A model generated the notes under the pieces. It had not been told where the DNA came from. It did no database searches and was given only the letters and a program-made list of their open reading frames with translations. A DNA stretch of 64,000 bases from Bacteroides sp. (GTDB taxonomy: Bacteria > Bacteroidota > Bacteroidia > Bacteroidales > Bacteroidaceae), in contig JAFUNS010000002.1 of assembly GCA_017472925.1 (NCBI GenBank), forward strand, positions 18,061 to 82,060, in the 5' to 3' direction. The position numbers and the translations under genes are program-made. This document shows positions 12,860-16,086 of this stretch, one piece after another (positions within the stretch are counted from its first letter, which is position 1; each line of letters starts with the position of its first letter).

Positions 12860-13564
12860 ATGAAAAAGACATTATTATTCGCCATTCTCCTATTCGTAGG
12901 TATTTGCCAATCCGCAGCTCAGAACATTCAGTTGCATTACGATTTCGGCCACTCTTTGTATGACGAATTCAAGGATAGTCGCGCCAAAATCACCACTACT
13001 GTAGAAATGTTCAAACCCGACAAATGGGGAAGCACCTTCTTCTTTGTAGATATGGATTATGCTGACAATGAAGTAAAATCGGCTTATTGGGAAATTGCTC
13101 GTGAACTGAAGTTTTGGAACGGTCCACTTTCCATTCACGCCGAATACAATGGTGGCTTGAATTATATCAAGGATTCTTGGTTGGCCGGTCTTACTTATAC
13201 TTATAATAATTCCGATTTTACTAAAGGATTCAGCTTTACTCCCATGTATAAGTATATCTGCAGCAATCCTACTCCTAATAATTTCCAATTGACCGGTACT
13301 TGGTATATTCATTTTGGTAAAGGGAAATACTCTTTCACCGGATTTGCTGATTTCTGGAGAGAAGAACATGCTGACATTAACGGGAACGAACATAATTTCG
13401 TATTCATGACCGAACCTCAGTTCTGGGTTAATCTGAATAAGTTTAATGGTATAGACGATAATTTCAATCTGAGTATTGGTACAGAATGGGAAATCACTTC
13501 AAACTTCGCCCTAAATAACGGTTGGTATGTAAATCCGACTTTGGCACTAAAATGGAGTTTTTAA
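12860..13564 (+). CDS. DUF5020 outer-membrane protein (Tsx-like)
   Basis: A 234-residue secreted protein with a signal peptide (MKKTLLFAILLFVGI, cleavage near SAAQ-N). The mature part is rich in alternating aromatic and polar strands and ends in the terminal Phe typical of beta-barrels recognised by BamA. The general form LHYDFG...GSTFFFVDMDY, several YNGGLNY/TWYIHFGKGKYSFTGF strands, and NPTLALKWSF matches DUF5020, distantly related to Tsx nucleoside channels. A nucleoside pore is possible but unproven. It is followed by a strong terminator. Confidence 0.78.
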   Translation: MKKTLLFAILLFVGICQSAAQNIQLHYDFGHSLYDEFKDSRAKITTTVEMFKPDKWGSTFFFVDMDYADNEVKSAYWEIARELKFWNGPLSIHAEYNGGLNYIKDSWLAGLTYTYNNSDFTKGFSFTPMYKYICSNPTPNNFQLTGTWYIHFGKGKYSFTGFADFWREEHADINGNEHNFVFMTEPQFWVNLNKFNGIDDNFNLSIGTEWEITSNFALNNGWYVNPTLALKWSF

Positions 13565-13601
13565 CCAATCACGCTATTTTTATTTTAAACAACATAGAGA
13601 T

Positions 13602-13640
13602 ATAAAAGGGGGGAATACACATGGTACTCCCCCCTTTTAT
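13602..13640. terminator. bidirectional terminator
   Basis: A perfect 12-bp stem ATAAAAGGGGGG / CCCCCCTTTTAT flanks a partly paired 15-nt loop. A-rich and T-rich flanks let it serve both the DUF5020 gene and the convergent mini-lipoprotein gene. Confidence 0.9.
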
Positions 13641-13688
13641 GTGCAATAACGATTCATACTTATTAAGGTCTCTCAGGAAAGAATGAAC

Positions 13689-13907
13689 TTACTTCTTCAA
13701 TTCTTTCAAAGCCTTTTTTGCTTCCTTTTCTGCATCTTCTGCAGCTTCTTCCACTGCTTCCTTTACTTCTTCTGCTTTTTCTTCTGCAGCTTCCTTCACA
13801 GCTTCAATAGCCTCCTTCATTTCTTTCTTGGCCTTATCTTCCTTGCTGCCACCTCCACATGCTGTAAGAGCCATAGCAGCCAAGCAAATAAATAAAATCT
13901 TCTTCAT
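13689..13907 (-). CDS. small Lys/Glu/Ala-rich helical lipoprotein
   Basis: A 72-residue protein with a lipoprotein signal (MKKILFICLAAMALTAC, lipobox LTAC) followed by Gly-Gly-Gly-Ser and about 50 residues composed almost only of Lys, Glu and Ala in a heptad-like pattern. It should form one long charged helix, superficially like Braun's lipoprotein or a coiled-coil spacer, but no terminal Lys-linkage motif can be assigned with certainty (it does end in KELKK). No named family is recognised. It lies alone between the DUF5020 gene and the dnaK promoter region, and has a strong -7 element. Confidence 0.8.
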   Translation of the reverse strand: MKKILFICLAAMALTACGGGSKEDKAKKEMKEAIEAVKEAAEEKAEEVKEAVEEAAEDAEKEAKKALKELKK

Positions 13908-13941
13908 AACAAATTTACTTTAGATTATTAATAAACAGATG

Positions 13942-13949
13942 CAAATATA
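13942..13949 (-). promoter_or_regulatory. -7 promoter element of the mini-lipoprotein
   Basis: On the minus strand this is TATATTTG (TAnnTTTG), 34 bp before the start codon. Confidence 0.5.
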
Positions 13950-14028
13950 GAAACAATTCATGGAGATGAAAAATAAATATGACACAAAAGTCACAAGTAC
14001 AAACTAAAATTAGAGGCACACAACATAA

Positions 14029-14059
14029 TTCTGACAGTAGTTGTGCCATTTTGTCAGAA
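14029..14059. promoter_or_regulatory. inverted repeat upstream of dnaK (candidate enhancer)
   Basis: TTCTGACA (14029-14036) and TGTCAGAA (14052-14059) are perfect 8-bp arms around a 15-bp spacer. The site ends about 45 bp before the predicted sigma-54 start, a plausible position for an NtrC-family activator. A second imperfect dyad (GGCACACAAC / GTTGTGCC) overlaps it. Confidence 0.65.
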
Positions 14060-14078
14060 ATATAAACCCCAAAATAAT

Positions 14079-14094
14079 TGGCACGAAGTTTGCT
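14079..14094 (+). promoter_or_regulatory. sigma-54 (RpoN) promoter of dnaK
   Basis: TGGCACG-AAGT-TTGCT matches the -24/-12 consensus TGGCACG-N4-TTGCW at every fixed position, with GG at 14080-14081 and GC at 14092-14093. The start would be near 14105, leaving a 77-nt leader. No TAnnTTTG housekeeping element is seen between it and dnaK. Confidence 0.8.
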
Positions 14095-14181
14095 GATAAA
14101 TAGATGAAAAGCCCGCCCACATAGGGTAAGGCAAGAGAATAAACATTATTAATTTAGAGAACAAATAAAAAACATAAGATT

Positions 14182-16086
14182 ATGGGAAAGATTATTGGTA
14201 TTGACTTAGGAACAACTAACTCATGTGTATCTGTATTTGAAGGTAACGAACCTGTAGTAATCACTAACGCTGAAGGCAAGAGAACTACTCCATCTATCGT
14301 AGCTTTTGTGGATGGTGGTGAACGTAAAATTGGTGACCCTGCAAAGCGTCAAGCAATTACTAACCCACAACGTACCATTTTCTCTATCAAGCGCTTTATG
14401 GGAGAAAATTGGGATCAAGTACAAAAGGAAATTTCACGCGTACCTTATAAAGTCGTAAAGGGTGATAACAATACTCCACGTGTTGATATCGACGGACGTC
14501 TCTATACTCCACAAGAAATCTCAGCTATGATTCTTCAGAAGATGAAGAAGACTGCAGAAGATTATTTGGGTCAAGAAGTTACCGAAGCCGTGATCACCGT
14601 TCCTGCTTACTTCTCTGATTCACAACGTCAGGCTACTAAAGAAGCCGGTCAGATTGCAGGTTTGGAAGTAAAGCGTATCGTTAATGAACCAACAGCAGCT
14701 GCTTTGGCTTACGGTATTGACAAGGCACACAAGGACATGAAGATTGCCGTATTTGACCTTGGTGGTGGAACATTCGATATTTCTATCCTTGAATTCGGTG
14801 GTGGTGTATTCGAAGTATTGTCTACTAACGGTGATACTCACCTTGGTGGTGATGACTTTGACCAAGTAATCATTGATTGGTTGGCTCAAGAATTCAAGAA
14901 TGATGAAGGTGCTGACTTGACTCAAGATCCGATGGCTATGCAACGTTTGAAGGAAGCTGCAGAAAAGGCTAAGATTGAATTGTCTTCTTCTACCAGCACC
15001 GAAATCAACTTGCCTTACATCATGCCGGTAAATGGTATGCCTAAGCACTTAGTGAAGACTTTGACACGTGCAAAATTTGAAATGTTGGCTCACAACTTGA
15101 TTCAAGCTTGTTTGGAACCATGTAAGAATGCTATGCGTGACGCTGGTTTGAGCAACTCGGATATCGACGAAGTAATCTTGGTAGGTGGTTCTACACGTAT
15201 CCCAGCCGTTCAGCAATTGGTACAGGACTTCTTCGGTAAGGTTCCTTCTAAGGGTGTAAATCCGGATGAAGTAGTAGCTGTAGGTGCTGCAGTTCAAGGT
15301 GCAGTATTGACAGACGAAATCAAGGGCGTGGTATTGCTCGATGTTACTCCACTTTCAATGGGTATTGAAACCCTCGGTGGTGTAATGACTAAGATGATTG
15401 ACGCCAACACAACTATTCCTTGCAAGAAGACTGAAACATTCTCTACAGCTGCTGACAATCAGACAGAAGTAACTATCCACGTACTTCAGGGTGAACGTCC
15501 GATGGCTGCTCAGAACAAGTCAATCGGTAACTTCAACTTGACAGGTATTGCTCCGGCTCGTCGTGGTGTTCCACAGATTGAAGTAACTTTCGACATCGAC
15601 GCAAACGGTATCTTGAAAGTATCTGCTAAGGATAAGGCTACTGGTAAGGAACAAGCTATCCGTATCGAAGCTTCTTCTGGTTTGAGCAAGGAAGAAATCG
15701 AACGCATGAAGGCAGAAGCCGAAGCAAATGCAGAAGCAGACAAGAAAGAACGCGAAAAGATTGACAAGCTGAACCAAGCCGACTCTATGATTTTCCAAAC
15801 AGAAAATCAGTTGAAGGAATTGGGCGACAAGCTTCCTGCTGACAAGAAAGCTCCTATTGAAGCAGCTCTCCAAAAGTTGAAAGATGCTCACAAGGCTCAA
15901 GATGTAGCTTCCATCGATGCTGCCATGGCTGAATTGAACAGTGCATTCCAGGCTGCAAGCGCTGAAATGTATGCTCAGAGCGGTGCTCAAGGTGGTGCTC
16001 AGCAAGGTCCTAACACAGGTGGTCAACAAGCTAACCAAAGCGGAAAGGAAGATATTCAGGACGCTGACTTTGAGGAAGTTAAGTAA
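14182..16086 (+). CDS. dnaK: molecular chaperone DnaK (Hsp70)
   Basis: A full-length 634-residue Hsp70. The ATPase domain opens with [15 protein letters not shown], and has [32 protein letters not shown] and VGGSTRIP; the interdomain linker is [11 protein letters not shown]; the substrate-binding beta domain and helical lid follow; the C-terminus is [12 protein letters not shown], the typical EEVK-like tail after a Gln/Gly-rich stretch. It folds and refolds cytoplasmic proteins with DnaJ and GrpE, encoded 29 kb away on the other strand. It is monocistronic, between a sigma-54 type promoter and a strong terminator. Confidence 0.99.

Follow-up and report, generated by a model that had tools for sequence, protein, structure and literature searches.

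The dnaK locus and its upstream region

The window (by which we mean the whole stretch of 64,000 nucleotides analysed, taken from a Bacteroides sp. contig) carries a dnaK gene with a sigma-54-type promoter sequence and an inverted-repeat element in its upstream region. The features are listed below.

13689..13907, minus strand: 72-aa Lys/Glu-rich ORF, divergent from dnaK (from the translation; its small-lipoprotein look was judged by eye)
14029..14059, no strand assigned: dyad TTCTGACA-N15-TGTCAGAA of the initial annotation, exact with 0 mismatches, enclosing the composite element
14032..14037, plus strand: third half-site TGACAG, 5 bp off the palindrome, with which it makes up the composite element 14032-14057
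14043..14057, plus strand: candidate activator operator, a 15-bp palindrome GTGCCATTTTGTCAG, 9/10 against the consensus CTGNCA-N3-TGNCAG
14079..14094, plus strand: predicted sigma-54 -24/-12 promoter TGGCACGAAGTTTGCT, exact match with 0 mismatches
14103..14106, plus strand: expected transcription start region GATG, placed from the -24/-12 geometry
14182..16086, plus strand: dnaK (Hsp70), 634 aa, Pfam HSP70 E 1.4e-260

The operator palindrome starts 36 bp ahead of the -24/-12 box, and the end of the composite element lies 21 bp ahead of it. The divergent ORF (13689-13907, minus strand), with its lipoprotein-like start, has its intergenic region in common with dnaK and the predicted operator. 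An Rfam search of positions 13500-14400 at a loose threshold returned three matches, all far under their gathering scores. The genome to which the window belongs (G000; 2.81 Mb in 79 contigs, 79.7% complete) contains rpoN, recognised as a 499-aa ORF with a PF00309 match (E 7.1e-12).

Conservation of the sigma-54 box upstream of dnaK

The box agrees with the RpoN -24/-12 consensus at every fixed base, exactly as the initial annotation had it. In the 2.8-Mb genome the sequence TGGCACGNNNNTTGCW occurs four times exactly and 31 times with at most one mismatch (the four exact copies included), as compared with 13 occurrences for the reversed control.

The conservation of the box was assessed over a total of 189 dnaK loci. 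These comprise 79 loci from named Bacteroidales (80 minus L087, which has 11 bp of upstream sequence), an order-wide sample of 30, 40 held-out loci from the same order, 20 loci from other orders of the class and 20 from other classes of the phylum. The held-out, class and phylum sets were hand-picked from listings, and the 30-locus set takes in both the window's own dnaK (L134) and a locus (L135) whose 200 bp of upstream sequence are those of the named L059. The pattern TGGCAY-N5-TTG was found within 260 bp of the start codon in 77/79 named loci, 29/30 of the order sample, 36/40 held-out loci and 17/20 loci from other orders of the class. In the other classes of the phylum it precedes dnaK in 5/20 loci, the exact box being missing in the other 15. 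With all sets pooled, the box is present at its fixed spacing in 164 of the 189 loci. The reversed pattern appeared 1, 0, 0, 0 and 0 times in the five sets, and the shuffle expectation was at most 0.20 loci per set.

As to the two doublets that were proposed to be kept in relatives, the GG of the -24 element and the G of the -12 element are kept in most loci (164/189), all three of these G being built into the search pattern itself. No such conservation holds for the C of the -12 GC doublet: over the 164 boxes, the base that follows the G is mostly T, A or C. Further downstream, the motif R-R-Y-G is enriched 24 to 27 bases past the box start (163 dnaK upstream regions), with a G in fourth place in 68%. 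This motif at a fixed distance from the box may possibly represent a conserved initiation site, to which GATG at 14103-14106 would correspond in the window.

A putative palindromic operator with a third half-site

Alignment of the upstream regions in register brought out a recurrent 15-bp palindrome, CTGNCA-N3-TGNCAG, often accompanied, at a distance of about 5 bp, by a TGTCA sequence as third half-site. We derived this consensus by eye from the named loci and the order sample, two of the five sets, and scored it on its 10 fixed bases within 110 bp of the box. A score of at least 8/10 is reached in 65/77 named loci, 24/29 of the order sample, 16/17 of the class set and 4/5 of the phylum set, as compared with 1.6-3.1% in dinucleotide shuffles. 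The held-out set falls clearly behind the others, with 17/36 loci at or above this score and 19/36 below 8. The three-half-site composite scores 15/16 in the window and at least 13/16 in 53 of the 189 loci; none of 189 shuffled sequences (one mononucleotide shuffle per locus) reached 13/16.

The initial annotation had described the upstream element as a perfect dyad, which is indeed exact at 14029-14059 and yet too wide, its two 8-mers being the outer edges of the conserved unit. This unit is the palindrome 14043-14057 together with the half-site 14032-14037, instead of the two outer 8-mers. The exact dyad occurs once in the genome, with 14 more places at 3 mismatches; since the total of 15 equals that of the reversed control, the dyad as drawn is unique, yet it is no genome-wide motif. 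It was rejected as a regulon motif, reaching at least 13/16 in just 14/189 loci (the window included) and showing no excess in the genome. Exact TGACA-N15-TGTCA is found before dnaK in 7/189 loci. The expectation that both elements are kept across Bacteroidales is borne out for the box, and in most loci outside the held-out set for the upstream element in the form of the palindrome, but not for the dyad as drawn.

Helical phasing of the operator relative to the box

When all operators are counted, their starts lie between 19 and 117 bp ahead of the box, with clusters at 26, 36-37, 47, 58, 68, 79-80, 88-91 and 101 bp. For the analysis of phasing we used one operator per locus and took out loci with a similarity of 55% or more over 60 bp, which kept 108 of 129 loci and lowered the kinship among them, although part of it is still there. 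Over these 108 non-redundant loci the distances have a periodicity of 10.5-10.6 bp, with a peak R of 0.739 at 10.6 bp, as against a maximum of 0.345 in 2000 random draws (distances uniform over 19-105 bp, with periods 8-14 tried and the best one taken). The phase is nearly equal from set to set: 5.3 bp for the named loci, 4.9 bp for the order sample, 5.0 bp for the held-out set (n=17, R 0.83) and 5.2 bp for the class set (n=15, R 0.87), with 5.4 bp for the phylum set of 4 loci only (R 0.44). The operator of the window, at 36 bp, is in phase with those of its relatives.

A site retained on one helix face at many distances is what would be expected if an activator bound there has to make contact with the polymerase. 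The view that the upstream site is placed for an activator thus holds at the level of sequence, in the form of a palindromic operator helically phased to the box. Together with the box spacing (kept in 36 of the 40 held-out loci) and the presence of an rpoN gene, this phased operator strongly supports the core of the initial annotation, namely that dnaK is driven by a predicted activator-dependent sigma-54 promoter with an upstream enhancer.

A proposed small chaperone regulon

Throughout the window genome, TGGCAYNNNNTTTG matches 50 sites (18 for the reversed control), whereas a misspaced pattern with N5 before TTTG gives 15 matches versus 15 for its control. Operator scores were obtained for 44 of the 50 sites, leaving out L186, L190, L194 and L207 (position filter) as well as C50:10736 and C75:50110. 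Among the scored sites, 9/10 operators stand only before htpG (26 bp from the box), dnaK (36 bp) and groES (36 bp), the groES and htpG identities being those assigned by Pfam (Cpn10 and HSP90, respectively); one more site scores 8/10. In G207, a genome of the same genus assembled in one contig, 9/10 operators are found only at dnaK (36 bp) and htpG (28 bp) among 56 box-like sites, and groES is absent from these 56 sites. A DnaJ gene of G207 has a box but no operator (6/10). The same holds for clpC, which both in the window genome (L188) and in G207 (L342:506) follows a -24/-12-like box and lacks a CTGNCA operator (6/10). As the palindrome and the box are common to groES, htpG and dnaK, these genes would form a small chaperone regulon.

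A different group of sigma-54-like boxes in the window genome (L182, L195, L196 and L198) is situated near ABC/HlyD-type or outer-membrane-efflux-like genes and close to a pair of NtrC-type enhancer-binding protein (EBP) and kinase. One more box (L184) lies near genes of the same kinds, on a contig where no EBP was detected. Other dyads are seen upstream of the efflux-gene boxes (e.g. GTGCGAATTCGCAC or TGTCC...GGACA), which suggests a local two-component control of efflux.

A candidate activator encoded beside lptE and secG

A search with PF00158 located an EBP of 398-427 aa adjoining lptE- and secG-like genes in 12 out of 12 relatives, with an extra ORF ahead of the secG-like gene at this locus in G023. 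The LptE, SecG and EBP domains were confirmed by Pfam in G207. The lptE-linked EBP is composed of Sigma54_activat, AAA lid and HTH_8 domains and has no Response_reg domain in the three genomes checked (G207, G068 and G019). With a threshold of E 1e-120, matches to it came from 24 of 26 genomes, including 14 of the 15 other genomes of the same genus; G202 (same genus, 94% complete) gave none. Neither search found it in the window genome (79.7% complete), where SecG gave no match either in a search run without a positive control. Given that this assembly is incomplete and SecG is likewise unmatched, the EBP locus is probably in the unassembled part, and its absence likely reflects an assembly gap.

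The recognition helix ISERTLYRKIKEY is present in 35 of 37 EBP rows (two of which, L277 and L353, are one gene); of the other two, L281 is cut off inside the helix and L296 differs. The loop reads GAFTGA in 20/37 rows and GSFTGA in 17/37. The lptE-linked EBPs (L259-L297, L353) carry GAFTGA or GSFTGA at this place, and the four receiver-type EBPs of the window genome (L225-L228) carry GAFTDA or GSFTDA.

In two relatives, G019 and G068, the lptE-linked EBP is the sole PF00158 match above 200 bits, and both genomes keep the dnaK operator in phase, at 47 bp (8/10) and 91 bp (9/10), respectively. From this co-occurrence we infer a link between EBP and operator, which makes the receiver-less Fis-type EBP beside lptE and secG the best candidate for the activator.

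A competing reading would have sigma-54 at the box and another EBP, such as an NtrC-type response regulator, at the operator, so that dnaK would answer a two-component signal. The window assembly is compatible with it, as the EBPs found there are four NtrC-type proteins, each with a receiver domain, and the lptE-linked EBP is not among them. On the other hand, three of these proteins are encoded close to efflux genes of ABC or HlyD type, whose boxes have other dyads upstream (as judged by eye), the fourth (L227) has no visible box next to it, and the operator is kept in the two relatives that have no other PF00158 match above 200 bits. We regard this reading as rather unlikely and retain the lptE-linked EBP as the candidate.

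Alternative readings of the operator and of the box

The palindrome could also be the operator of a repressor or modulator, with sigma-54 activation achieved by another route. An example would be a regulator like the RprY of Porphyromonas gingivalis, for which the accessible part of PMC3646045 describes gel-shift binding at the groES, clpB and dnaK promoter regions and proposes a role as repressor. With its distances spread over 19 to 117 bp and yet for the most part sharing one helical phase, the operator suits a polymerase-touching activator better than a blocking repressor, and the P. gingivalis RprY did not bind htpG (same part of PMC3646045), a gene that here has a 9/10 site. This makes a repressor operator a very improbable explanation.

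With respect to other promoter types, TAnnTTTG occurs within 200 bp of dnaK in 16/189 loci, as compared with 22.3 in shuffles. The window has none within this distance, which upholds the earlier remark that no housekeeping element is visible, and the relatives have no excess of it. Searching before dnaK for TTAGCACTC-N9-GAGTGCTAA, which we take to be the CIRCE consensus, gave a best match of 12/18 and none of at least 14/18 among the 189 loci. Neither sigma-32 (RpoH) nor CIRCE is known from Bacteroidota. A sigma-70-type scan returned 3 sites versus 3.2 in shuffles. A last reading would make the box a site for some other protein instead of a sigma-54 promoter, and have dnaK depend on the housekeeping sigma (TAnnTTTG), on HrcA/CIRCE or on an ECF sigma. 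It has in its favor the C of the -12 GC doublet not being kept in relatives, but is scarcely credible with TAnnTTTG not enriched, CIRCE not found, TGGCAY-N5-TTG at fixed spacing in 164/189 loci and sigma-54-type starts mapped in Flavobacterium (accessible part of PMC9723704).

Relation to published systems

Sigma-54 chaperone promoters in Bacteroidota are already published (accessible parts of PMC9723704 and PMC12316311). In Flavobacterium psychrophilum, a member of the same phylum, sigma-54-type (SM4) starts were mapped before dnaK, groESL, grpE-dnaJ, htpG, clpB and lon, with a -24/-12 box before the chaperone genes as here. An EBP-lptE operon of this species (locus tags 0733-0732) has tags close to that of groES (0729); the part of the report accessible to us (PMC9723704) assigns no activator to the SM4 promoters and gives no operator. 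A second study predicted by matrix an enrichment of sigma-54 sites at the genes for DnaK, GroEL, GroES, GrpE, DnaJ and IbpA in Flavobacteriia, Bacteroidia and Cytophagia, and stated that GroES and GrpE of B. thetaiotaomicron are sigma-54 dependent; as far as its accessible part goes (PMC12316311), this is promoter enrichment only and links no enhancer site to these chaperone genes. The circuit, which the initial annotation considered unusual, is thus no oddity of the window genome, being frequent within the class and built on a promoter type already on record.

What the present analysis adds to the F. psychrophilum work, across Bacteroidales and further orders of the class, is a putative operator, its phasing and one candidate activator. 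The accessible part of PMC4010731 describes a 432-aa regulator on a gut fosmid, with the same domain make-up as the lptE-linked EBP and located near lptE, secG and clpB; a sigma-54-dependent regulator from this fosmid conferred salt tolerance on its own in E. coli. Word searches met neither rpoN nor dnaK in the main text of two B. thetaiotaomicron papers (PMC12596196, PMC7366714), and neither Bacteroid- nor dnaK in PMC3162934. A literature search, mostly of papers open without subscription, found no published report of the operator, of its phasing or of the activator assignment. In the literature found, the control of Bacteroidota chaperones without sigma-32 or CIRCE seems little described.

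Proposed mechanism and implications

Overall, we hold it quite probable that these elements belong to one system, with a sigma-54 promoter at dnaK, an EBP acting at the three-half-site operator and a chaperone regulon of dnaK, groES and htpG. What speaks against it is that neither the window assembly nor G202 yields the EBP, that held-out loci often score low for the operator and most loci of other classes are without the exact box, and that groES is missing from the G207 sites while clpC and the DnaJ gene have a box without an operator. In this system sigma-54 RNA polymerase would transcribe dnaK from the box at 14079-14094, starting near 14105. A Fis-type EBP bound to the three-half-site element 14032-14057 would face the closed complex and open it with ATP. 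As this activator we propose the receiver-less EBP whose gene adjoins lptE and secG. Its activity may rise on heat or on protein or envelope stress, perhaps by release from an inhibitor, because the EBP is without a receiver domain of its own.

PspF-type EBPs consist of an AAA+ domain and a Fis HTH with no receiver, and their activity needs an outside inhibitor or supply control. The lptE-linked EBP is similarly receiver-less, with an AAA+ domain and a Fis HTH, whereas its operon partners (lptE and secG) and its predicted targets differ. Heat-shock control by sigma-32 (RpoH) and by HrcA/CIRCE also co-ordinates dnaK, groES and htpG. Where these systems replace the sigma factor or rely on repression, the mechanism proposed here would act on sigma-54 through an activator that uses ATP. 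The recurrence of the arrangement across the class suggests that its chaperones are turned on through such an activator rather than through a dedicated heat-shock sigma factor.

A broader proposition, to which we give even chances, is that throughout the class Bacteroidia the heat-shock response has one master activator, a receiver-less EBP from the lptE-secG cluster; this protein would then be the sigma-54 equivalent of RpoH and couple chaperone output to the state of the envelope and of secretion. If true, this could explain why rpoN is retained in some tiny genomes of flavobacterial endosymbionts. According to the accessible part of PMC3971599, Walczuchella, Uzinura and Blattabacterium retain rpoN, which is called 'unusual' there, and nitrogen is suggested as its role in Walczuchella; chaperone control could be an alternative reason for the retention in Walczuchella. 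Sulcia, unlike the related endosymbionts, is without rpoN (same source), which counts against the explanation that we prefer for dnaK. Now that sequence evidence points to an operator, to a rule for its spacing and to a single candidate activator, chaperone control in these bacteria can be tested. It would be a case of a core stress regulon, rather than a specialised pathway, being run on sigma-54.
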